Positions 27,108-39,199 are shown, counted from the stretch's first letter. The stretch: DNA of 64,000 bases from Pontivivens marinum (GCF_900231835.1 NZ_OCTN01000001.1:372001-436000), one strand, 5' to 3'. Notes: a model not told the origin generated them from the sequence alone. Translations and numbers: made by a program.

Positions 27108-27200
27108 CGTCAGGTATCCATTCGTAAATTACACCCATCCAGATAGGACAGTTTCGGGGTGAAGTCCCGCTCCGATCTGCGGTCCGATACCAGCCATAAA

Positions 27201-27226
27201 AAAGGGGCACCCGCAGGCACCCCTTT
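27201..27226 (-). terminator. Intrinsic terminator of the cold-shock gene
   Basis: Arms AAAGGGG (27201-27207) and CCCCTTT (27220-27226). Read on the minus strand, the stem is followed by a run of six T. It separates the cold-shock gene from guaD. Confidence 0.75.
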
Positions 27227-27249
27227 GAATTTCGGTAATGTGGAGTGCG

Positions 27250-27453
27250 TTAAACGACCAGGTCGCCCGCGCTCTTGCGGCCATCACGACCGTCGATCAA
27301 TTCATACTCGATCGGTTGATTGTCCTGCAGAGACTGTAGTCCAGCTTGTTGAACAGCGGAGATGTGGACGAAAATGTCCTTTCCGCCGTCATCCGGTTGA
27401 ATGAATCCATAACCCTTTTCAGAGTTGAACCACTTGACGATACCTTTGGCCAT
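27250..27453 (-). CDS. Cold-shock family protein (CspA-type)
   Basis: A 67-residue single OB-fold nucleic-acid-binding protein. RNP1 is KGYGFIQP and RNP2 is DIFVHISAV; MAKGIVKWFNSEKGYGFI is the universal opening. Aromatic residues of the RNA-binding face are present. AAGGA lies before the ATG. The upstream region to 27700 (247 bases) is shared with the divergent TerC gene and contains no other gene; a long leader is usual for this family, but I cannot define its structure. Confidence 0.95.
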   Translation of the reverse strand: MAKGIVKWFNSEKGYGFIQPDDGGKDIFVHISAVQQAGLQSLQDNQPIEYELIDGRDGRKSAGDLVV

Positions 27454-27700
27454 TACTGACGGTCCTTAGAGTAGTGTGGTAGGGCAACGTGCCCTGCCTT
27501 CGCTTTCCCCTCAACCGCCCCGGCACGCCAATGACGCGCTGAATAGTCTTCAGGGTACTGGGAATGTAGCTGAAAACAGGCCTTCGTTCAACGCAAGCAT
27601 AATTTTTCCAAAGCAAAACTTTGACTACCCTGTGCTAAATTGTAGAACCCAACCCAATTGCAAAGCGAAGCCGGTGAGGCTTACGAAATAAGGTAGCGTC

Positions 27701-28525
27701 ATGGAATTGCTCACACTCGAAAACCTCGGCACCCTGGTGATGCTGATCTTCCTTCAGGCCGTATTGGGCTTTGATAACCTGCTCTATATCTCCATCGAAT
27801 CGCAGCGTGCGCCGATCGCGGATCAGGCCCGCGTGCGCCGCTGGGGTATTCTGATCGCCATTGCACTGCGCATCATCCTGCTCTTCGTGATGATCCAATT
27901 GCTGCAAACCCTGTCCCAAACATTGTTCAGCCTGAATTTTGAGGGGATCATCACCGGCGAGTTCACCTTTGCCACTCTGGTCTTCCTGTTTGGTGGCGGC
28001 TTCATCATGTACACAGCGGTCAAGGAAATCGCGCACCTGCTGGCGATGGACCACCTTGGCCACGGGGTGGAGAGCAAGCAGCGCCGCTCCGCGGCCTCTG
28101 TCATTGCGATGATCGTGTTCATGAACCTGATCTTCAGCTTTGATTCGATCCTGTCCGCCATTGCGATCACAACCGTCTTCCCGATCCTCGCCATTGCGAT
28201 CCTGCTCTCGGGTCTGGCCATGCTGCTGCTGGCCGACACCGTGTCCGAATTCATCGAGAAGAACCGCATGTACGAGGTTCTGGGCCTGATGGTCCTGCTG
28301 ATCGTCGGTGTGGTTCTGTTGGGTGAGGGCGGACATCAGGCGCATATGAAACTGTTCGGCTACGAGGTTCTGGCCATGTCCAAATCCACCTTCTACTTCT
28401 CGATCGTGGTGCTGTTCGTCGTACAGGTCCTGCAAACCGGCTATCGGCGCAAACTGGAGGCCGTACGTGCGCATCGCCGCACACAAACTTCGCCAGAACA
28501 TGTTAGTAATGGCCCTGCGCAGTAG
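27701..28525 (+). CDS. TerC family integral membrane protein, first gene of the XpaC-TelA cluster
   Basis: A 274-residue membrane protein with about seven to eight hydrophobic segments and the two TerC motifs LQAVLGFDNLLYISIESQ and NLIFSFDSILSAIAI, each with a buried Asp. It is clearly divergent from the TerC at 18713 (shorter His-poor loop, extended C-terminus). It is followed on the same strand by the 30-residue peptide gene 56 bases later and then by tightly spaced XpaC, TelA, SPFH and zinc-ribbon genes up to a terminator at 33077. In established work TerC links to TelA and XpaC families in metal- and envelope-stress systems; a role in that complex is inferred from position. Confidence 0.9.
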   Translation: MELLTLENLGTLVMLIFLQAVLGFDNLLYISIESQRAPIADQARVRRWGILIAIALRIILLFVMIQLLQTLSQTLFSLNFEGIITGEFTFATLVFLFGGGFIMYTAVKEIAHLLAMDHLGHGVESKQRRSAASVIAMIVFMNLIFSFDSILSAIAITTVFPILAIAILLSGLAMLLLADTVSEFIEKNRMYEVLGLMVLLIVGVVLLGEGGHQAHMKLFGYEVLAMSKSTFYFSIVVLFVVQVLQTGYRRKLEAVRAHRRTQTSPEHVSNGPAQ

Positions 28526-28581
28526 CGATCAGACCTCTGAGTGCCTATAATAATGCGAACGGATTAAATCAGGAGCATCAT

Positions 28582-28674
28582 ATGGGACGAGGCAACATTG
28601 GACGCGTGGCCACCGCAATACTGGTGGTCGTCGTCGCCGTCGTCGCGTTCAAGGCATTCGGAGGGCCAATCTGA
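28582..28674 (+). CDS. 30-residue single-span membrane peptide, translationally coupled to xpaC
   Basis: ATG at 28582 with AGGAG 6 bases upstream opens a 30-codon frame ending TGA at 28672-28674. The sequence is MGRGNIGRVATAILVV followed by VVAVVAFKAFGGPI: a short basic N-terminus, then about 17 strongly hydrophobic residues, then a basic/Gly-Pro tail. The stop TGA shares its last base with the ATG of the next gene, and a second ribosome-binding stretch (GGAGGG) sits inside the peptide's last codons, so translation should be coupled. It is not a member of a family known to me. The clean ribosome site and overlap argue that it is real. Confidence 0.75.
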   Translation: MGRGNIGRVATAILVVVVAVVAFKAFGGPI

Positions 28675-29615
28675 TGGCCCGTCGTTTTGGCGGGCAGTTC
28701 AGCAATGGCGGCGCGACCGACGCGCCCCAATCTCCGCAAAATCGGGCCTCACAAAATCAGGCCCCGCAAAAATCAGCATGGTCCGGCCGGACCGTGCAAC
28801 GCTGGACCGGACGCCTGACACTGGTTTCGGTCGCGGCATTCCCGATGTTGGCCGCAGGCTTGCTTGAGCTTGGCTCGGGCGATGCATTGCAAGCGGTGGG
28901 CGAACTGGCCGCCTTTGCCGCAATGGCTGGCGGCGTCTGGCTAACCCGTGAGGGGCTAAAGGCCGAGGACGCCTATGCCGCCCGCACCGTCGCCCATGCC
29001 CCCCGTGCCCCGCGCAAAATTGCAGGTGCTGTTGCCATGGGCATCGGCGTCGCATTGGGTGCGGCTGTGGGATGGGAACTCGGTGTAGTGCAGGGCGCCG
29101 TCTATGGCGTTGTCGCGGCCACCGCACATGTCGCCGCATTTGGTCTGGACCCGATGCGGGCCAAGGGCAGCTCGGACATTTCCGATTTCGACCGCGACCG
29201 CGTTGCCGGTGCCGTGGACAAGGCGGAAGCCCTGCTCGCCGACCTAATCGCACAGGCCAGCCGCATCCGTGACCGCAACGTCGCCGCGCGTGTCGACAGC
29301 TTTGCCGCCGCCGCCCGCGATATGTTCCGCCGGATTGAGGAAGACCCCCGTGATCTGGCCGGTGCCCGCCGCTACCTTGGAGTGTACCTGTCAGGCGCAC
29401 GGGATGCGACAGCGCAATTCGCAGACCTGTGGGCACGCGCCCCTGAAACAGCGGCGCGTCAGGATTACCTCGCCCTGCTTGATGATCTCGAGATGCGCTT
29501 TAACGCAAAAAGTGCCACCTTGATTGAAAATGACCGCTCTGCCCTCGACATCGAAATCGAGGTGCTGCGCGACCGACTGCAACAAGAGGGCGTCCGCCCT
29601 AGAAAGATGGAGTGA
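28674..29615 (+). CDS. XpaC-like membrane protein (5-bromo-4-chloroindolyl phosphate hydrolysis family)
   Basis: A 313-residue protein. Residues 1-40 are polar and Gln-rich (SQNQAPQKSAWSG); two hydrophobic pairs follow (LTLVSVAAFPMLAAGLLEL with AFAAMAGGVWLT, and IAGAVAMGIGVALGAAVGWELG with GAVYGVVAATAHVAAFGL). The cytoplasmic C-terminal half is helical (VDKAEALLADLIAQASRIRDRNVAARVDSFAAAARDMFRRIEEDPRDLAGARRYLGVYL), matching the XpaC domain. The name reflects a phenotype in Bacillus, not a known reaction. XpaC genes are commonly beside TelA, as here: telA starts 4 bases after this stop. Confidence 0.85.
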   Translation: MARRFGGQFSNGGATDAPQSPQNRASQNQAPQKSAWSGRTVQRWTGRLTLVSVAAFPMLAAGLLELGSGDALQAVGELAAFAAMAGGVWLTREGLKAEDAYAARTVAHAPRAPRKIAGAVAMGIGVALGAAVGWELGVVQGAVYGVVAATAHVAAFGLDPMRAKGSSDISDFDRDRVAGAVDKAEALLADLIAQASRIRDRNVAARVDSFAAAARDMFRRIEEDPRDLAGARRYLGVYLSGARDATAQFADLWARAPETAARQDYLALLDDLEMRFNAKSATLIENDRSALDIEIEVLRDRLQQEGVRPRKME

Positions 29616-29618
29616 ACC

Positions 29619-30797
29619 ATGCCTTCCGAGACCATCCGCACCAAAGCCGAGACCGCATTGCGCGAGGCAGAGATCGTCACCTCTACCCTGCTGCCCGAGC
29701 CCACGGACGCCAATCTGCCCGTCGTTGCCGGTTCCGTGCCACAGGATCAGATCGACACCCGCGTGGCGGAGCTGGACATGGAGGACACACAGTCCATCAT
29801 CCGCTTCGGTTCAGGCGCGCAATCCGAATTGCAGGTCATCTCGCAGCAAATGCTGGCAGGCGTGCGCAACAAGGATATCGGCCCCGCCGGCAATTCCCTG
29901 CGCGACATGGTATCCTCGCTGCGCGGGTTTTCCGCCGCAGAACTGGACCCGAACGCGGAGCGTAGCTGGTGGCAAAAACTGCTGGGCCGCGCCGCGCCAC
30001 TCGCCAACTTCACCGCGAAGTTCGAGGAAGTGCAGGGCCAGATCGACCGCATCACCGATGAGCTGCTGGAGCATGAGCATACCCTGCTCAAGGACATCAA
30101 ATCGCTCGACCTGCTCTATGAAAAGACCCTCGATTTCTATGACGAGCTTGCGCTGTACATCGCGGCTGGTGAGGCAAAGCTGGCCGATCTGGACGCCAAC
30201 GACATCCCCGCCAAGGTTGCCGCCGTTGAGGCAGCACCCGAGGATCAGGGCGTGATGAAGGCGCAGGAGCTGCGCGACCTACGCGCCGCCCGTGATGATC
30301 TGGAACGCCGCGTCCACGACCTGAAACTGACCCGTCAGGTGACGATGCAATCGCTGCCCTCGATCCGCCTGGTTCAGGAAAACGACAAGAGCTTGGTGAC
30401 AAAAATCAACTCAACCCTCGTGAACACCGTGCCCCTGTGGGAAAACCAGTTGGCACAGGGCATCGCCATCCATCGCAGCCGCGAGGCCGCAACCGTTGTG
30501 CGCGATGCAAACGATCTGACCAACGATCTGCTGCGCCAGAACGCCGAAAACCTGCAAACCGCCAACCGCGAAATCCGCACGGAAATGGAACGCGGCGTCT
30601 TCGACATCGACGCGGTCAAGGATGCAAACCAGCGCCTGATCGACACAATTCAGGAGAGCCTGCAAATCGCGGATGAGGGTAAGGCAAAACGCGCCGCCGC
30701 CGAGGTAGAGCTGCAATCCATGGAGCAAAAGCTCAAGGAAACGCTGGCCAGCGCCAAGGCAGCAAACGTAGCACAACCGGTTACCGATCAGGTTTAA
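29619..30797 (+). CDS. TelA/KlaA family toxic anion resistance protein
   Basis: A 392-residue, almost wholly helical cytoplasmic protein with no membrane segment. Family landmarks: QSIIRFGSGAQSELQVISQQMLAGVRNKDIGPAGNSLRDMVSSLRGF near the N-terminus, then KLLGRAAPLANFTAKFEEVQGQIDRITDELLEHEHTLLKDIKSLDLLYEKTLDFYDELALYIAAGE, and the C-terminal LTRQVTMQSLPSIRLVQENDKSLVTKINSTLVNTVPLWENQLA. These long heptad-bearing helices suggest coiled-coil assembly. TelA proteins are linked to tellurite and envelope-stress resistance, mechanism unsettled. GGAG before the ATG; a GC-rich hairpin follows the gene at 30810-30835. Confidence 0.92.
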   Translation: MPSETIRTKAETALREAEIVTSTLLPEPTDANLPVVAGSVPQDQIDTRVAELDMEDTQSIIRFGSGAQSELQVISQQMLAGVRNKDIGPAGNSLRDMVSSLRGFSAAELDPNAERSWWQKLLGRAAPLANFTAKFEEVQGQIDRITDELLEHEHTLLKDIKSLDLLYEKTLDFYDELALYIAAGEAKLADLDANDIPAKVAAVEAAPEDQGVMKAQELRDLRAARDDLERRVHDLKLTRQVTMQSLPSIRLVQENDKSLVTKINSTLVNTVPLWENQLAQGIAIHRSREAATVVRDANDLTNDLLRQNAENLQTANREIRTEMERGVFDIDAVKDANQRLIDTIQESLQIADEGKAKRAAAEVELQSMEQKLKETLASAKAANVAQPVTDQV

Positions 30798-30809
30798 CCC
30801 ACGCACGTC

Positions 30810-30835
30810 CCCTCCCTCGCACCAACGGGGGAGGG
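30810..30835 (+). other. Intercistronic hairpin between telA and the SPFH gene
   Basis: Arms CCCTCCCTCG (30810-30819) and CGGGGGAGGG (30826-30835) pair with one G-U and a six-base loop. There is no T run, so it may stabilise or process the mRNA or attenuate it rather than terminate it fully. A fresh AAGGAG then serves the next gene. Confidence 0.55.
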
Positions 30836-30872
30836 TTAGGAAGGGGGCCCCGCGCCCCACAAGGAGAACCCA

Positions 30873-31985
30873 ATGCCCATTTTCGACTTCCTGCGCGGCG
30901 AATTTATCGACGTCATTCACTGGACCGAGGATAACCGCGACAAAATGGTCCACCGCTTCGAGCGTGAAGGCCATGCCATCAAATACGGCGCGAAACTGAC
31001 CGTGCGTGAGGGGCAAGCCGCCGTTTTCGTGCACGAAGGCCAGATCGCAGACGTGTTCGCACCGGGCCTGTATATGCTCGAAACGAACAACATGCCGATC
31101 ATGACGACGTTGCAGCACTGGGACCACGCCTTCCAGTCGCCGTTCAAGTCCGAGATCTACTTCGTTTCCACCACACGGTTCACCGACCTGAAATGGGGTA
31201 CAAAAAACCCGATCATGTGTCGTGACCCCGAATTCGGCCCCGTTCGCCTGCGCGCATTCGGCACCTATACTGTCCGCATCACGGATCCTGCGAAATTCAT
31301 GCAGGAAATCGTGGGCACCGACGGTGAATTCACCACGGCTGAGATCACATATCAGTTGCGAAATATCATCGTGTCCCGCTTCTCGACCGCGATTGCGGGT
31401 TCGGGAATTCCCGTGCTGGATATGGCGGCGAATACCGATGATCTGGCGAAATTCGTGGCCGCGAAAATCGCGCCTGAAATCGCAGAATACGGCATCGAAT
31501 TGCCGATGCTGATGATCGAGAACATCTCGCTGCCCGCCGCAGTGGAGCAAGCAATGGACCGCCGCACCTCCATGGGCGTTGTCGGCGATCTGGGCCGCTA
31601 CACGCAGTTTCAGGCAGCCGAGGCAATGGCAGAGGCCGCGAAAAACCCCGGTGGCGGTATGGGCGCAGGGCTCGGCATGGGAATGGGCATGGCGATGGCG
31701 CAAAACGGCCCATGGGGCAGCGCACCAGCCGCAGCCGCTCCTGCCGCAGCCGCACCACCCCCACCACCACCGGTCGAGCACGTTTGGCACATCGCCGAAA
31801 ACGGCGCGACCCACGGCCCCTACTCCAAGGCACGCCTTGGCCGCATGGTACAGGAGGGCGGACTGACCCGCGACACCCTCGTCTGGACTGCTGGCGCTGC
31901 GGGCTGGACCAAGGCAGGCGACATTCAGGAGCTGGCGCAACTCTTTACCGTCATGCCACCGCCGCCCCCACCGCCGGGCGTTTAA
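30873..31985 (+). CDS. SPFH-domain protein (YdjI-like) with C-terminal GYF_2 domain and poly-Pro tracts
   Basis: A 370-residue cytoplasmic protein. Residues 1 to about 245 are an SPFH/virion-core-like domain: FLRGEFIDVIHWTEDNRDKMVHRF, LTVREGQAAVFVHEGQIADVFAPGLYML, and FGTYTVRITDPAKFMQEIVGTDGEFTTAEIT. A Gly/Met-rich linker (GGGMGAGLGMGMGMAMAQNG) and an Ala/Pro stretch ending in six prolines lead to a GYF_2 (DUF4339) domain, VWHIAENGATHGPYSKARLGRMVQEGGLTRDTLVW, and a terminal tract of seven prolines. In Bacillus the SPFH protein YdjI recruits the stress protein PspA to the membrane; here no PspA is present. Next gene starts 4 bases later. Confidence 0.88.
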   Translation: MPIFDFLRGEFIDVIHWTEDNRDKMVHRFEREGHAIKYGAKLTVREGQAAVFVHEGQIADVFAPGLYMLETNNMPIMTTLQHWDHAFQSPFKSEIYFVSTTRFTDLKWGTKNPIMCRDPEFGPVRLRAFGTYTVRITDPAKFMQEIVGTDGEFTTAEITYQLRNIIVSRFSTAIAGSGIPVLDMAANTDDLAKFVAAKIAPEIAEYGIELPMLMIENISLPAAVEQAMDRRTSMGVVGDLGRYTQFQAAEAMAEAAKNPGGGMGAGLGMGMGMAMAQNGPWGSAPAAAAPAAAAPPPPPPVEHVWHIAENGATHGPYSKARLGRMVQEGGLTRDTLVWTAGAAGWTKAGDIQELAQLFTVMPPPPPPPGV

Positions 31986-31988
31986 TCC

Positions 31989-33056
31989 ATGGGTGAGCTT
32001 GAGACCCACCGCTTCCCCTGCGGGACGTGCGGTTCCGACCTGCGTTTCGCACCGGGCGAGCGGTTATTGCGCTGCGATCATTGCGGCGCGACCGAGGGGA
32101 TGCCCGCCGCATCGCCATGGGATCGATCAGCCGTCGCGGAAAACGATATCCGCGGCGCGCTAGCCACCACGGCAGAGCCGGAGATGGAGGAAACCCGCGT
32201 TGTCCAGTGCACCTCCTGCGGCGCGCAGGTTGAGTTTGATCCGAATGAACACGCGGCGGAGTGCCCCTTCTGCGCCTCGCCCATGGTCACCGGAACCGGC
32301 ATAAACCGCCACATCAAACCACGCGGCATCCTGCCCTTTGATATCGATCAGGGTGGCGGGCAGAATGCGATGCAGAAATGGCTGCGCGGGCTATGGTTTG
32401 CCCCGAATGCGCTGAAAAAATATGCGCGCTCGGATCACAAATTACAGGGCATCTACCTGCCCTACTGGACCTTCGACGCGCAGACGGAAACCGATTATCG
32501 CGGTCAGCGCGGAACCAAGCACAAACGCACCGTTAGTGATGGGAAGAAGCAAACCACGATCCGCTGGCGACCGGTCAGCGGGCATGTCTCACACTTCTTT
32601 GACGATGTGCTGGTGACAGGCTCCCGTACCTTGCCCGAGAATCAGATCCGCAAAATCTCGCATTTCGATCTGTCCGCCCTGGAACCCTATCGCCCGCAAT
32701 TCCTCGCCGGTTTTAGGGCCGAGGCCTATTCCATCGATGTGGTTGAGGCGAAAACCCTCGCCGAGCAAATGATCGACGGTGAGGTCCAAACCCTTATCAA
32801 ACGCGATATCGGCGGTGACCGGCAGCGGATCGACGATATGCAGGTCACGCTATCGGATGTGACCTATAAGCATATCCTCGTGCCCGTCTGGATCGCCGCC
32901 TATCGGTTCCGCGGTAAAAGTTATCGTTTTGTCGTCAATGCACGTACCGGCGCCGTCACCGGTGAGCGTCCATGGTCGCCGGTCAAGATCGCTATCGCGG
33001 TTGTGCTGGGTGCCATTGCTGCCGGTATTGTCGCCTTTATCAGCGCCAACAGCTAA
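31989..33056 (+). CDS. Double zinc-ribbon membrane-anchored protein (YdjG/TFIIB-type zinc finger)
   Basis: A 355-residue protein with two N-terminal zinc ribbons: CGTCGSDLRF...RCDHCGATEG (about residues 10-36) and CTSCGAQVEF...CPFCASPMV (about 74-100). A central domain follows (KWLRGLWFAPNALKKYARSDHKLQGIYLPYWTFDAQTETDYRGQRGTKH, ALEPYRPQFLAGFRAEAYSIDVVEAKTLAE), and a C-terminal membrane segment (IAIAVVLGAIAAGIVAFISA) anchors it tail-first. It resembles Bacillus YdjG-type proteins found with SPFH proteins. Last gene of the cluster, 3 bases after the SPFH stop, and closed by a strong terminator. Confidence 0.85.
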   Translation: MGELETHRFPCGTCGSDLRFAPGERLLRCDHCGATEGMPAASPWDRSAVAENDIRGALATTAEPEMEETRVVQCTSCGAQVEFDPNEHAAECPFCASPMVTGTGINRHIKPRGILPFDIDQGGGQNAMQKWLRGLWFAPNALKKYARSDHKLQGIYLPYWTFDAQTETDYRGQRGTKHKRTVSDGKKQTTIRWRPVSGHVSHFFDDVLVTGSRTLPENQIRKISHFDLSALEPYRPQFLAGFRAEAYSIDVVEAKTLAEQMIDGEVQTLIKRDIGGDRQRIDDMQVTLSDVTYKHILVPVWIAAYRFRGKSYRFVVNARTGAVTGERPWSPVKIAIAVVLGAIAAGIVAFISANS

Positions 33057-33076: not shown

Positions 33077-33112
33077 AAAAGGGGGCGCAACCGACAGGTT
33101 GCGCCCCCTTTT
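33077..33112. terminator. Strong bidirectional intrinsic terminator
   Basis: AAAA then arms GGGGGCGCAACC (33081-33092) and GGTTGCGCCCCC (33097-33108) with a GACA loop, then TTTT. It ends the zinc-ribbon gene (plus) and the giant adhesin gene (minus). Confidence 0.93.
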
Positions 33113-33130: not shown

Positions 33131-36100
33131 TCAGGTGATGAAGAACAGTTCGTCAACCAGCGCCAGCTCAGCGTCCAGAACTTCCTGCGGGATATCGTCA
33201 CAATCGTCGATGGTTGGCGTATCGCCGTCCAGACCGACCACATCCAGCAGATCATCCAACAGACCGCCCAGACCACTTTCCGCACCAATTGCATAGGTGG
33301 AGATGGTGGCGTTGTAGTCATCGACCAATGCCTCAACCGCATCCTCGGCACCTGTGCTGGACGAACCACCACCGGTGAAGATGAACACGCGGTTATCCGC
33401 ATTTTCATCCATCTCGCTCTGCAACGATGTCAGTGCACCGCTGAGGTTCGAGGAGGAAGCAAGGCTGCCATCGATGTCATATGGGCTGCCGATCTCCGTC
33501 GCGGTGGAACCGTATGTGAAGTAGCTGCTCGATGTGCTGAGGTCGGAGAAGTTATCCCAAACCGTTGGCAGCACTTCACCCAACTGACCTGCCATCTCGA
33601 TCGAAAGGTCGATCCAGCTGGTGCTGCCGTCGCCGTTGAAATCGCAATCGAGCGACGCAACATTGACGAACATCGAGGCCGAAGCATCGATCAGGAAGTA
33701 GTAGTTCACATCTGCCGAAACGCCGGCATCCGAACCCTCACCATTCACAACGATCTCGATCGTAGCGGAATCACCCTCACCAGCCGCGTCAGATGCGGAG
33801 TAGTTGAAGGAGACGATCTCGCTCTGACCATCGTTCAGTGCAAGGAACTGATCGCTAGGATCGAAGGCAAACGTACCGTCTGCCTCAACCGTCAGCGTAC
33901 CGGTCCAGCCCTTGCCAGCCGAGGTCAGCTCAATCGCCGCACCCGGAACAAGCGTCTGACCCGCAACTGTTTCGATCGTGATCGTGTCACCGATGTCATT
34001 ATCGGTCACCAGAGCCGACAGATCGCCAGTGGCGACTTCCGTCTCAAGGATCTCGATGATCTGGCCAGTCGCAACCGGTGGCGTGTTTGGTGCTGCATCA
34101 TCAGCGCCAGTGATCGTAACCGTTACGGACTTCGTATCGGTCTGGACCACACCACCATCGCTGGATTCAACAGTGTACTGGAAGGTGAACGTATCGATAT
34201 CACCGGCATTCATGATCTCAGCGGCTTGTGCGCTAGGCTGATAGCGCATCGAACCATCAACGAAGACCGTCAACGTACCGGTCAGGCCGTTATCGGTGAT
34301 GATGTTGTTCGCAACAACATTACCGAAGCGACCGGAGGTCGAAAGGCTCATCCCGTCGCTGATACCAGCCAACGTAACCGCATCACCATCTGGATCGCTT
34401 GCGCCATCCATAATGTTGACGTTCAGCAGCTCGGTGTCCTCATCCGTGGTGTATGCCTGATCGATAGCAATCGGCGGAGAGTTGATGCCGTTGATATCAA
34501 TCGTTGCAGTCGCGGTGGAGGACTGAACCGTGGTTCCGCCAGTCGATTCTACGGTGAACTCGAAGGTGATGAAATCAGGCTGATCCTGATCCAGATCGGT
34601 CGAGGTGGACACATAGGTGAATGTGCCATCCGCGTTGATCGTCAGCAGGCCAGTGCCACCCTCGGTGGTTGTGACTGCAACAGCCTCACCGATTGCGCCC
34701 AACGATGTGGAGACCAGCGAAATCGCATCGCCATCCGCATCCGTGGAGTTTGCAAGCAGATCGCCCGAAACCGTGGAGATTTCGCCAATGTTGTTCTGCT
34801 CGAACACCACCACACCAACATCGCCAGCAATCGGCGCAACGTTCACGCCGTTGATGTTGATCGTTGCCTGCGAGGAGGAGAACTGCTGCGTCACACCGCC
34901 CGAGGAAACTGCGGTGAATTCAATCACCACCATGTCGCTCTCGTTCAGGTCCATGGAGCTGTCCAGAGCGGTCAATGTGAACGAACCGTCCGCACCAATC
35001 GTCAGTTCAGCGTCATGACCGCTGGTGGTTGTGACAATAACCGTCTCCCCCACGGCACCGACCGAGGTCGAGAACACAGTGATCGCATCGCCATCAGCAT
35101 CCGTAGCACCGTCCAGCAGGTTGCCAGTGACAACGTTGCTCAGGCCCTGATCGTTCGCCTCGGATATCTGGAAGGTCGAGTTGACCGTCACAGGCGCCAC
35201 GTTCACGCCGTTGATGTTGATCGTCGCCGTTGCCGTGTCGGATTGCGTAACCACGCCACCGGTGGATTCAACCGTGAAGTCGAAGGTGATGCTGTCTGCC
35301 TCACCCAGGTCCAGGCTGTCATCGGTGGATACGAACGAGAATGTACCATCGGTGTTGATCGTCAACTCACCGGTACGACCGCCATCGGTGGTGACGGAAA
35401 CCGTATCACCAATTGTGCCAACCGTGGTGGATGCCAGAACCAGCGTGTCACCGTCGATATCCGTTGCATCGAACAACAGGTTGCCAGCAGCGGTGCTGGT
35501 CAGACCCTGATCGTTCATCTCGTTCAGCGTGATGCTCTGCGAGATAGCAACCGGCGCATCGTTCAGGCCGTTGATGGTGATCGTCACCGTCTTTGTGTCG
35601 GTCTGAACCGTGGTGCCGCCCGACGATGCGATTGTGTAATCGAAGGTCAGGGTATCGGTTTCGGTCAGGTCCAGCGCATCGCTGGTCGATGTGAAGGTGA
35701 ACGTACCGTCATCATTGATCTGAAGAAGACCGCTTTGGCCGCCTTCAGTCGTGACCAGACGTGTACCGCCAATCGCACCCAGTGTGGTGGATTGCAGGGA
35801 CATCGCATCGCCATCCGCATCAACCGCACCGGCCAGCAGATCGCCGTCGATTGCGTTTGGTGTGGTTGGGGCGGTGGATGCCTCATCCATGCTCAGATCG
35901 ATGTTCTGCGCCGCAGGACCAACATTCACACCAGCGATGGTAACAGTCGCGGTCTGCGTGTCGAACTGATCCGTTACACCACCCGACGACACAACAGTGA
36001 AGTCGAAGGTGTAGCTGTCAGTCTCGCCCAGATCCATGCTGTCATCAGCCGAGGACAGTGTGAACGAACCATCAGCAGCCACTGTCAGCAGCGCCGCAAC

Positions 36101-39100
36101 GCCCGCTGCGGTGGTTACTGCCAGCGTCTCACCCAGTGCACCGGCGGAGATACCGGAGACTGTGATCGTGTCGCCATCCGCATCAGTCGCGCCGTTCAGC
36201 AGGTTGCCCGCTGCGGTGCTGTTCTGACCCTCAGCGTTCTGCTCGCTGATTGCGAAGCTCTGCGCCGTGGCAACAGGACCTTCGTTCAGGCCAGTGATGG
36301 TGATCGTCGCAGTGGACGATGCCGTCGCCTGACCGTCAGTGGCGGTATAGCCGAAGGTGATTGTGTCTGTCTGACCCATATCCAGATCAACACCATCCGG
36401 CGTGAAGGTGAACGAACCGTCTGCGTTAACGATCAGCGTACCGGTGTTGCCGCCATCGGTGGTGACGCTAACGCCCTCACCCAATGCGCCAGCGGTGATG
36501 CTCTCAACAGTGATGACATCGCCATCCGCGTCGGTCGCATCGTCCAGCAGGTTGCCGGAAACAGGTGTCGCCTCATCGGTCAGCGCGGCAACAACCTCAA
36601 CAACTGGTGCAACATTGTCTGTTACGCCGGTCACTGTGATGGTCAGCGTGCCGTCAGCCGAGGCCGTTTCACCAGCAGTCTCACCCGAGGTGCGGGTCAT
36701 CACGACGTTATCGATACGGCCGCCATAGCTGTCGCTGACTGGCAGACCCTCGAATGCGATGCGGTGATCGCCCTCAGTCAGGTCGAAATTGACCGTCAGG
36801 GACTTCTTCTCCAGATCGTCGGAGTTCAGCGTTGCAACAACAACCCCGTCAACCAGAACCGAAACACCCGAAGTGTCGTCGATTTCGCCGTTCAGGGCGC
36901 GTGCATAGAAGTCGAGGCTCAGCTCGAAGGAACCGTCGGAACCAGCGTAGACATCCTGATACAGCGTGCTGTTAAAGCGCGCGTCCAGCTCAGCCACGGT
37001 GTTGTTGGTGTCGATGTTTTCCGAACCGCCAACGTTACCGCTTTGCAGTTCGATATCGCCTTCCAGAACCGACCAGCCCTCAACCAGATCCTGATCGAGA
37101 TAGTTCCACTGACCGTCTGTGCCGCTGGTGTTGAACAGCAGCTCGGAACCGCCACCCTCGAAGTCGCCGTTGACGATCAGGCGATCATCAGGAGTCGCAA
37201 CAGTCGTGGTCGCAGTTGCAGTGTAGTTCAGGCTGATTGTGTCAACGTCGCCGTCGTTCAGCTCCTCGAAGCCTTCGTTAGGCTCGAAGGTGTAGGAACC
37301 GTCTGCGTTCACTGTCAGCAGACCGGTCAGACCACCCTCGGAGGTCACTTCAAAGCTCTCGCCAACAACGCCGCCCTCGATCGCGGAAACGGCCAGCGTC
37401 CCCTCGGTCGTTGCGTCGTTCTCCAGGATGTTGCCCGAAACAGCGGTATCTTCGTCAGTGGTGTTTGTGTCGTTCTCGACCGAGATAACCGGCCCGTCCG
37501 ACGCGCCGTCGATGGTCACAGTGACCGTCGCGGTGTCGTAAACATAGGCAGGGACTTCCTCAGTCGAACCCAGCACCAGATCGTCGATGCCGCCGGACCC
37601 CTTGAGCACAACAACCATGTACGAAACGTCTACACCGTTCAGCGCAACTTCGTTGATGGAGTTGTTGGAGCCGCCGCTGACCCACTGCTCGCCAGTCTTG
37701 CACCAGTTCTCATCAAAGAAACCGATCCAGACACCTTCTTCGTTGTCTACGATGGTCAGCGAGCTGACATCAGTAGGCTCATCGAAGGAGAAGCGGATTT
37801 CGCCGCCAGCAGCGTTATCATCAGGATCCCACTCGTGGCCGTCCTCGGAGATGATCAGCAGGTTGCCCTGCGTATCAGTCGCCAGATCCCAGTCGCCGCC
37901 GGTCGGGTTGTTGGAGTCGAAGATCATCGCCTCGTCAATGCACTTGTTATAGGCATGAACGTTGATGGTAACACCGTCGATCTGGTTGGTGATCGTCTCA
38001 CCGGTGTTGAACTCTTCGAAGTCGATTGTGCGTGTGCTGTCGATGGTTGTGAAACCATCCTGCGACTTAACAGTGAAGTCGAAGCTGAACGTGTCCGTCT
38101 CACCCTCGGCCATGTCGTTCGCATCAGCACCCGGAGTATAGGTGTATGTGCCGTCTGCGTTCACAACAACCGTACCGGTATAGCCGTTCGCAGTGGTAAC
38201 CTCGATTGCCTCACCGATCGCGCCCAGCGATGTGCCGTCCAACGTGACAACGTCGCCGTCTACGTCGAATGCGCCGTCCATAACGTTGCCAGTAACGGCC
38301 TCGTCCTCGGAGGTGCGAACCGCCTGATCAACAGCAACAGGCGCATCGTTTACGCCGGTAACTTCGATGGTCAGTGTCGCGGTATCTGTCAGGCCGTCGG
38401 AATTCAGAACCGTGTAGTCGAGGGAGACAGTTGCCGTCTCGCCTGCACCCAGTGCATCGAAGTCGCCAGCAGCATCGAAATCAACGGAACCGTCAGCAGC
38501 AACCAGAACGCGGCCGCCATCTTCCAGATCGATCCAAACGCCGACCAGCGATGCGGAGCCGTCGATTTCCTTGACGACCAGCGCCTCGGATGTGTTGGAC
38601 GCATCGTTCAGCAGAACGTTGATGTCGTTATCGCCAAAGCCTTCGCCCTGCATAACAGCAAGGAAGTCGTCATCCGCATCAGGCGCCGAAGCATGCGAAC
38701 CGATCTCACCGCCGTCTAGGCAGGCATAGCTCAGCGAGCCACAATCGCCGTAGTAGCATGCAGCGGTCAGCTCAACGCCCTGCGCAGGAACTGCACCGTA
38801 GAACGCGAAGTGATCGTTGCCGCCGTCAGGCAGGTTCGTGCCCTCGATCTCGATCATGTAGTAGGTGTTGCCATCATCGCCGTGCACGACGAAGTAGCCT
38901 TCCCAGTAGACGTTACCGGCATCGGTCCAGTTTCCGTCCTCGTTCAGCCAACCGGACTGATTGTCCGAACCCTGCTCGTTCGCATTACGACCACTGTCGC
39001 CAGCCAGACCGGAATCATTGTCGCTGACATACATCGTCGCATCAGCACCCGAATAGGTGAAGCTGTCGCCGGTGCTGAAGTTGCTGTCAGTACGGATCGA

Positions 39101-39154
39101 GTTCTCATCGATAACCGTGAAACTGTTCCAGGAATAATTGCTACTGCGGCCCAT
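33131..39154 (-). CDS. Giant secreted repeat protein with cadherin-like/VCBS repeats and C-terminal vWA domain
   Basis: A 2007-residue acidic protein without an N-terminal signal peptide, consistent with type I secretion. Order: an N-terminal module (about 1-150, ending FAFYGAVPAQGVEL) resembling those before Hint domains in rhodobacterial secreted proteins; about eleven Ig-like repeats of roughly 115-120 residues with DADGD and NADGTFTF-type motifs; two non-repeat modules inserted among them (about 395-550, with three cysteines; and about 655-830, LIVNGDFEGGG...GRIDNVVMTR, a carbohydrate-binding-like jelly-roll); then a vWA domain from about 1815 with a MIDAS DASAS. I see no RTX nonapeptides. 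The start at 39154 has AGAGGA upstream. No type I secretion genes are in the window. Likely surface adhesin or matrix protein. Confidence 0.88.
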   Translation of the reverse strand: MGRSSNYSWNSFTVIDENSIRTDSNFSTGDSFTYSGADATMYVSDNDSGLAGDSGRNANEQGSDNQSGWLNEDGNWTDAGNVYWEGYFVVHGDDGNTYYMIEIEGTNLPDGGNDHFAFYGAVPAQGVELTAACYYGDCGSLSYACLDGGEIGSHASAPDADDDFLAVMQGEGFGDNDINVLLNDASNTSEALVVKEIDGSASLVGVWIDLEDGGRVLVAADGSVDFDAAGDFDALGAGETATVSLDYTVLNSDGLTDTATLTIEVTGVNDAPVAVDQAVRTSEDEAVTGNVMDGAFDVDGDVVTLDGTSLGAIGEAIEVTTANGYTGTVVVNADGTYTYTPGADANDMAEGETDTFSFDFTVKSQDGFTTIDSTRTIDFEEFNTGETITNQIDGVTINVHAYNKCIDEAMIFDSNNPTGGDWDLATDTQGNLLIISEDGHEWDPDDNAAGGEIRFSFDEPTDVSSLTIVDNEEGVWIGFFDENWCKTGEQWVSGGSNNSINEVALNGVDVSYMVVVLKGSGGIDDLVLGSTEEVPAYVYDTATVTVTIDGASDGPVISVENDTNTTDEDTAVSGNILENDATTEGTLAVSAIEGGVVGESFEVTSEGGLTGLLTVNADGSYTFEPNEGFEELNDGDVDTISLNYTATATTTVATPDDRLIVNGDFEGGGSELLFNTSGTDGQWNYLDQDLVEGWSVLEGDIELQSGNVGGSENIDTNNTVAELDARFNSTLYQDVYAGSDGSFELSLDFYARALNGEIDDTSGVSVLVDGVVVATLNSDDLEKKSLTVNFDLTEGDHRIAFEGLPVSDSYGGRIDNVVMTRTSGETAGETASADGTLTITVTGVTDNVAPVVEVVAALTDEATPVSGNLLDDATDADGDVITVESITAGALGEGVSVTTDGGNTGTLIVNADGSFTFTPDGVDLDMGQTDTITFGYTATDGQATASSTATITITGLNEGPVATAQSFAISEQNAEGQNSTAAGNLLNGATDADGDTITVSGISAGALGETLAVTTAAGVAALLTVAADGSFTLSSADDSMDLGETDSYTFDFTVVSSGGVTDQFDTQTATVTIAGVNVGPAAQNIDLSMDEASTAPTTPNAIDGDLLAGAVDADGDAMSLQSTTLGAIGGTRLVTTEGGQSGLLQINDDGTFTFTSTSDALDLTETDTLTFDYTIASSGGTTVQTDTKTVTITINGLNDAPVAISQSITLNEMNDQGLTSTAAGNLLFDATDIDGDTLVLASTTVGTIGDTVSVTTDGGRTGELTINTDGTFSFVSTDDSLDLGEADSITFDFTVESTGGVVTQSDTATATININGVNVAPVTVNSTFQISEANDQGLSNVVTGNLLDGATDADGDAITVFSTSVGAVGETVIVTTTSGHDAELTIGADGSFTLTALDSSMDLNESDMVVIEFTAVSSGGVTQQFSSSQATININGVNVAPIAGDVGVVVFEQNNIGEISTVSGDLLANSTDADGDAISLVSTSLGAIGEAVAVTTTEGGTGLLTINADGTFTYVSTSTDLDQDQPDFITFEFTVESTGGTTVQSSTATATIDINGINSPPIAIDQAYTTDEDTELLNVNIMDGASDPDGDAVTLAGISDGMSLSTSGRFGNVVANNIITDNGLTGTLTVFVDGSMRYQPSAQAAEIMNAGDIDTFTFQYTVESSDGGVVQTDTKSVTVTITGADDAAPNTPPVATGQIIEILETEVATGDLSALVTDNDIGDTITIETVAGQTLVPGAAIELTSAGKGWTGTLTVEADGTFAFDPSDQFLALNDGQSEIVSFNYSASDAAGEGDSATIEIVVNGEGSDAGVSADVNYYFLIDASASMFVNVASLDCDFNGDGSTSWIDLSIEMAGQLGEVLPTVWDNFSDLSTSSSYFTYGSTATEIGSPYDIDGSLASSSNLSGALTSLQSEMDENADNRVFIFTGGGSSSTGAEDAVEALVDDYNATISTYAIGAESGLGGLLDDLLDVVGLDGDTPTIDDCDDIPQEVLDAELALVDELFFIT
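34060..36620 (-). repeat. Tandem ~360-bp repeat units inside the adhesin gene
   Basis: Unit boundaries (the [AGP]PV/I linker after TI-x-G-x-N) recur near 36600, 36270, 35920, 35560, 35205, 34840, 34475 and 34060, a spacing of about 330-415 and mostly 360 bases. Units are diverged at the DNA level but retain DATDADGD, SVTTDGG and NADGTF-type cores. The region is prone to recombination and assembly collapse. Confidence 0.8.
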
Positions 39155-39199
39155 ACATTCGATCCTCTTTTGCAGCACTTGCTGCGTGTCCCTTGAAGC

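Follow-up and report, generated by a model that had tools for sequence, protein, structure and literature searches.

A six-gene cluster was analysed in a 64,000-nucleotide stretch of the Pontivivens marinum genome (GCF_900231835.1 NZ_OCTN01000001.1:372001-436000), referred to below as the window. The genes encode, in order, a TerC-family protein, a transmembrane (TM) microprotein, an XpaC-type membrane protein, a TelA protein, an SPFH protein with a C-terminal GYF domain and a zinc-ribbon membrane protein (ZnR) (Table 1). As the original prediction from the sequence had claimed, six open reading frames were found on the same strand with gaps of 56, −1, 3, 75 and 3 bases, and the strong terminator proposed to close them was recovered at −35.2 kcal/mol (z −7.5), with none of 200 shuffled sequences as good. 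Gene content and order were identical in the remaining three genomes of the genus. The cluster is real and widely conserved in marine Rhodobacteraceae, where the microprotein, XpaC, TelA, SPFH and ZnR form an invariant core, and the genetic coupling of an XpaC–TelA module to an SPFH–ZnR module is well supported.

Table 1. Features of the operon, in coordinates of the window (aa, amino acids)
Feature	Position	Strand	Description
TerC	27701..28525	+	274 aa, seven TM-like windows; optional member
TM microprotein	28582..28674	+	30 aa; stop overlaps XpaC start (TGATGG)
XpaC-type membrane protein	28674..29615	+	313 aa, PF10112
TelA, YaaN-type	29619..30797	+	392 aa, soluble, helical, net charge −22
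G+C-rich hairpin	30810..30835	+	inside 75-bp TelA–SPFH gap; may serve in processing or stabilisation
YdjI-type SPFH with C-terminal GYF_2	30873..31985	+	370 aa, polyproline flanks GYF, no TM
YdjG-type zinc-ribbon protein (ZnR)	31989..33056	+	355 aa, two zinc ribbons, beta domain, C-terminal TM anchor 329–355
Intrinsic terminator	33081..33112	+	stem 33081–33108, then TTTT

Inheritance of the genes was followed in a family survey of 61 genomes, comprising the window's genome and one from each of 60 other genera. TelA was present in 54 of these genomes, SPFH-GYF in 55 (one being a fragment at a contig end) and ZnR in 54. All three were missing from G014, G029, G030, G033, G045 and G059, and the shared pattern of presence and absence was significant over the 61 genomes (Fisher p 1e-7). 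XpaC–TelA and SPFH–ZnR were separated by 38 kb in G018, yet all families were present; in G004 the two pairs lay on different contigs with all families retained, and in G025 ZnR had been relocated away from the locus, with TelA, SPFH and ZnR still present. Among 190 Alphaproteobacteria TelA was rare (17 over the cut-off). All eight of these genomes with a full-length ZnR also had TelA (p 7e-10), and a compact XpaC–TelA–SPFH–ZnR arrangement was detected in four further alphaproteobacterial families. Several Alphaproteobacteria carried TelA, some with XpaC, but had no SPFH or ZnR. XpaC immediately preceded TelA in almost all of the relatives, where the operon sits between rluB and dtd as a core-genome feature. 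At 70 named loci from roseobacters and relatives (e.g. Rubricella, Sulfitobacter, Ruegeria and Roseovarius), SPFH and ZnR were both found 70 times, XpaC and TelA 67 times each, DUF2927 62 times and TerC 19 times, and therefore the core consists of the microprotein, XpaC, TelA, SPFH and ZnR, with TerC as an accessory. The predicted merger of two gene sets in one operon was thus borne out, and the sets are co-inherited within the family. The neighbourhood survey proposed at the outset spoke against independent variation of TelA and SPFH/ZnR inside the family, whereas outside the Alphaproteobacteria the modules occurred apart.

The six genes as predicted are, however, not the conserved unit, since they include the optional TerC and lack a DUF2927 gene found in nearly all relatives. 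TerC matched PF03741 (E 9.5e-36, 123.6 bits), and both the TerC domain and seven TM-like windows were found. Its nearest NCBIfam model was the YkoY subfamily, below the cut-off of that model; neither YkoY nor YjbE (TIGR03716/03717) was reached, with 53.8 vs 138.5 and 36 vs 134.8 bits, respectively. TerC was adjacent to the operon in 10 of 53 family loci and in 19 of the 70 named loci, which does not support its supposed place as a constant part. According to the gene calls, the stretch from TelA to SPFH was occupied in 48 of 51 family loci by a gene of roughly 300–330 aa, identified as DUF2927 (PF11150, E 3e-59). These proteins mostly carry a lipoprotein-like signal and share a conserved HEE motif. 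The window's genome and its three congeners gave no PF11150 match in a search that was positive in 15 of 15 other family genomes. In Rubricella (L025/L094), the closest genus by SPFH identity (85%), a GSCFA-family gene stands at the site of DUF2927, and matches to PF11150 were weak only and away from the operon. G014 (L186), which lacks the other operon genes, still has DUF2927 beside rluB, so DUF2927 is separable from the operon. The TelA–SPFH gap had no DUF2927 in the four other alphaproteobacterial families, and the absence of this gene from the window's genus may be either a secondary loss or the older state. At the named loci, all five TelA-bearing loci lacking DUF2927 had TerC (19 of 67 overall), an observation on loci too few and too related to interpret.

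The SPFH protein matched Band_7_1 (PF13421, E 2e-100, 335 bits) without any TM window, and its C-terminal domain matched GYF_2 (PF14237, E 5e-19). GYF domains bind proline-rich peptides. Polyproline stretches were present before the GYF domain in 44 of 54 relatives and after it in 49 of 54, and this combination suggests that subunits may be cross-linked through GYF. The zinc ribbons of ZnR were weak in Pfam and clear by eye, with CxxC…CxxC occurring twice and the cysteines invariant in 40 relatives. An AlphaFold2 model of ZnR (predicted local distance difference test, pLDDT, 90) contained two zinc ribbons, a C-terminal TM helix and a beta domain with very long strands (153–181, 187–210 and 278–307) around a helix. 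For the beta domain no PDB match was obtained at E ≤ 0.001, and the best VIA match (4exr, Z 4.7 over 63 residues) was too weak. In Enterococcus gallinarum, SPFH, ZnR and a TPM-domain gene form one operon equivalent to the YdjI–YdjG–YdjH set of partners. The ZnR proteins of the two organisms were 25% identical over nearly the full length (E 2e-35), and their SPFH proteins were homologous (E 1e-13). Two zinc ribbons, one additional domain and a TM segment have been described for YdjG (PMC11237479), and the ZnR model agrees with this. Through the Enterococcus operon and the published description of YdjG, SPFH and ZnR can be assigned to the YdjI/YdjG kind. An anti-phage system was also considered and rejected, as PADLOC gave no match for five operon proteins; the SPFH matches in a phage collection were short unannotated faecal contigs.

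XpaC matched PF10112 (XpaC / Halogen_Hydrol, E 3.9e-23, 82.9 vs a gathering threshold of 29.8 bits) and adjoins TelA. The microprotein in front of it has the same length and the same one-base stop/start overlap with XpaC in three congeners, and homologues were found at 134 of 145 XpaC genes. In a held-out test, a profile built from one half of the loci was searched against the remainder, with reverse-strand, shifted (−1500, +2000, +3000) and shuffled controls. The microprotein was recovered at 63 of 74 held-out XpaC genes and in none of the controls, ruling out a chance reading frame; a shift of +1000 gave 5 matches, probably from duplicated XpaC genes. The pN/pS ratio (non-synonymous to synonymous) was 0.23 over 94 pairs, with pN below pS in every pair. 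The microprotein is thus a genuine coding gene under purifying selection. It is 27–30 residues long with the typical sequence MSxxGLQKxAYxLLxxLLFGVxTGWLGGL, and this short form had no model in Pfam or NCBIfam. At several loci (L013, L030, L034, L052, L058, L098, L101, L105 and others) a second XpaC had a longer TM peptide of its own in front of it, which ends differently, in …ALWLLIFALSYL (pattern …AFxALWLLIFALSYL); the peptide and XpaC therefore appear to have been duplicated as a pair. Gene order and this co-duplication suggest XpaC as the partner, of which the microprotein would be a small subunit. A search immediately in front of xpaC in three loci of Bacillota found no TM microprotein.

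TelA gave a strong match to PF05816 (E 8.9e-106, 354 vs a cut-off of 30 bits) and was 38% identical to YaaN of B. subtilis and 28–30% identical to the plasmid proteins KlaA/KlaB. Its AlphaFold2 model was almost all helix, with three long helices, and was weak (pLDDT 68, predicted template modelling score 0.48). Foldseek found no match to this low-confidence model at E ≤ 0.001, and VIA-align listed ClyA-like and other long-helix proteins with Z up to 11.8, as expected of any long-helix model. PspA, Vipp1 and ESCRT-III were not among the matches listed, which for a model of this confidence excludes nothing. The claim that the system lacks PspA was correct for the operon; elsewhere in the genome, on another contig and beside a helix-turn-helix regulator gene, there is a single weak PspA_IM30 homologue (50 bits; G000:C11:176102–176857; L069:8102–8857). 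In the family survey PspA_IM30 was over the cut-off in 12 of 61 genomes, unrelated to the presence of the operon (Fisher p 1.0), and TPM was found in 15 of 61 and not in the window's genome. Since both are rare in the family, the operon cannot generally depend on either.

Counterparts of both modules are known from Bacillus. In B. subtilis, the σW regulon includes xpaC–yaaN, yceC–H (with TerC and TelA) and pspA–ydjGHI alike (PMC3498285). PspA is recruited there by YdjI, which in turn depends on the membrane proteins YdjG and YdjH (PMC8581546). Like pspA–ydjGHI, the present operon combines an anchorless YdjI-type SPFH with a YdjG-type double zinc-ribbon TM protein; in contrast, it has neither PspA nor TPM (YdjH), and XpaC–TelA is added. 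It also shares with B. subtilis xpaC–yaaN and Listeria lmo1966–1967 an XpaC gene directly upstream of a YaaN-type TelA, but here a microprotein precedes XpaC and SPFH–ZnR follows TelA. A Listeria TelA mutant was reported as 4-fold more sensitive to nisin and 2-fold more sensitive to tellurite (Collins 2010, as cited in PMC12791056). The yceCDEFGH operon likewise unites TerC (yceF) and a TelA-family gene (yceH) under envelope-stress control, whereas TerC is optional here, unlike in yceCDEFGH and in plasmid ter/kla clusters. No TerD- or TerB-type gene was found among the operon genes, which therefore do not amount to a ter cluster (a genome-wide search was not made). In Psp systems with band-7 partners, too, operons bring band-7 proteins together with zinc ribbons and membrane partners (Ravi et al. 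2024, PMC11237479). The present operon differs in being free of PspA, its SPFH ends in GYF where the published Bacillus band-7 partner ends in a C-terminal zinc ribbon, and the main text of that study does not mention TelA, XpaC or TerC. In the clostridium Vescimonas (L194:3107–5513) the order XpaC–TelA–TPM was observed, tying TelA to a YdjH-type partner and not to SPFH–ZnR; judged by gene order, this operon links the same two modules independently. A literature search found no paper treating TelA together with SPFH, and an earlier in-silico mention of parts of the neighbourhood is possible.

Taken together, we consider it fairly probable that the operon encodes a PspA-independent envelope-stress assembly of the inner membrane, in which two ancient modules have been fused in one operon. 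Such an assembly would have two anchors (ZnR, and XpaC with the microprotein) and two soluble scaffolds (SPFH-GYF and TelA). In the one module, XpaC, polytopic with a cytosolic helical part, and the translationally coupled microprotein would act as membrane receptor for the coiled-coil TelA. In the other, the tail-anchored ZnR would tether the anchorless SPFH, which may build an oligomeric platform, probably cross-linked by binding of GYF to the polyproline of neighbouring subunits. On membrane damage, the presumed trigger, the SPFH platform and TelA as effector would co-assemble into a physical complex and stabilise the bilayer without PspA or the TPM partner YdjH. TerC, where present, might contribute by exporting Mn2+ or by loading exported proteins with metal. 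A bolder extension, possible though rather doubtful, is that Rhodobacteraceae replaced Psp as the main membrane surveillance by a PspA-free SPFH/ZnR/XpaC/TelA complex with the microprotein as an obligate subunit.

Several observations weigh against such a joint assembly. Co-occurrence in related genera is not fully independent, and the co-losses represent at most about six events. SPFH–ZnR occurs without TelA in Vibrio, Comamonas (plasmids) and Enterococcus, and Bacillus has XpaC–TelA without SPFH; because the modules are separate outside the Alphaproteobacteria, their merger is lineage-specific. Within the operon a G+C-rich hairpin separates TelA from SPFH, and sigma-70-like promoter sites were no commoner than chance. 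The main rival explanation is accordingly that XpaC–TelA and SPFH–ZnR answer the same stress from one operon and work in separate complexes. It accords with the occurrence of each module alone elsewhere, with the B. subtilis counterparts, which share σW and are co-regulated yet unlinked, and with G018 and G004, which hold the modules apart in one genome. Co-loss and co-retention, and 3-base gaps in several families, favour a tighter coupling without excluding this explanation, which we regard as somewhat unlikely.

As a special case of the joint assembly, TelA may substitute for PspA as an ESCRT-III-like membrane scaffold recruited by SPFH, as had been proposed originally. TelA is soluble, acidic and almost all helix, the operon and most family genomes lack PspA, and in B. 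subtilis PspA is recruited by proteins of the SPFH/ZnR kind. The window's genome nevertheless has its own PspA homologue, and generic long-helix proteins were best among the matches listed for the low-confidence TelA model, with PspA and ESCRT-III absent there, although a model of this confidence excludes neither fold. We consider the substitution unlikely. Metal handling offers another explanation, with TerC at the centre of Mn2+ export and metal loading of exoenzymes, zinc ribbons as sensors and DUF2927 as client. At the secretion machinery, TerC proteins supply exported enzymes with Mn, and FloT was co-purified with them (PMC10550928); the HEE motif of DUF2927 and the zinc ribbons would suit this role. 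It is rendered improbable by the lack of TerC at about 70–80% of the loci, the lack of DUF2927 in the window's genus and the lack of a Mn riboswitch in the operon region, where Rfam gave no riboswitch or other match above gathering. A tellurite resistance cassette in the narrow sense is suggested by the family names and is highly improbable, given that TelA is nearest to chromosomal-type YaaN and not to plasmid KlaA/KlaB and that the operon belongs to the core genome; a plasmid-borne cassette was rejected on the YaaN-type TelA and the rluB/dtd flanks in relatives.

TelA and XpaC have had stress phenotypes for decades without a mechanism, and the operon supplies a concrete and testable set of partners. 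What appears to be new is the merger of two membrane-stress modules known separately from Bacillus, for which a joint mechanism is proposed. Throughout a large family of bacteria abundant in the sea, TelA and XpaC are hard-wired to the kind of SPFH/zinc-ribbon proteins that organise PspA in Bacillus, and an overlooked microprotein under purifying selection is added, with XpaC as its likely partner. Provided that the complex exists, it illustrates a way in which bacteria lacking PspA may protect their membranes.

The hairpin in the TelA–SPFH gap was not expected by chance in the window (no copy), and a similar one was present in this gap in all four genomes of the genus. The 75-bp gap as a whole, at 30798–30872, folded no better than shuffled sequences (z −0.69). 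The hairpin is possibly an RNA processing or stabilising element. A CCCTCCC…GGGAGGG hairpin was found at 2 places in the window's genome and gave 34 matches in the congener G061, resembling an interspersed repeat. Upstream of the operon and divergent from TerC lies a cold-shock protein gene (27197–27623, −); a match to the cspA thermoregulator over this gene and its leader was below threshold (25.8 vs 78 bits). Downstream, a convergent gene (33131–39178, −) encodes a repeat protein of 2,015 aa, in which similar 'NDAPVA…' repeats recur many times and one end is VWA-like. The gene shares the operon terminator, which can serve both directions because an A-run lies 5' of its stem.

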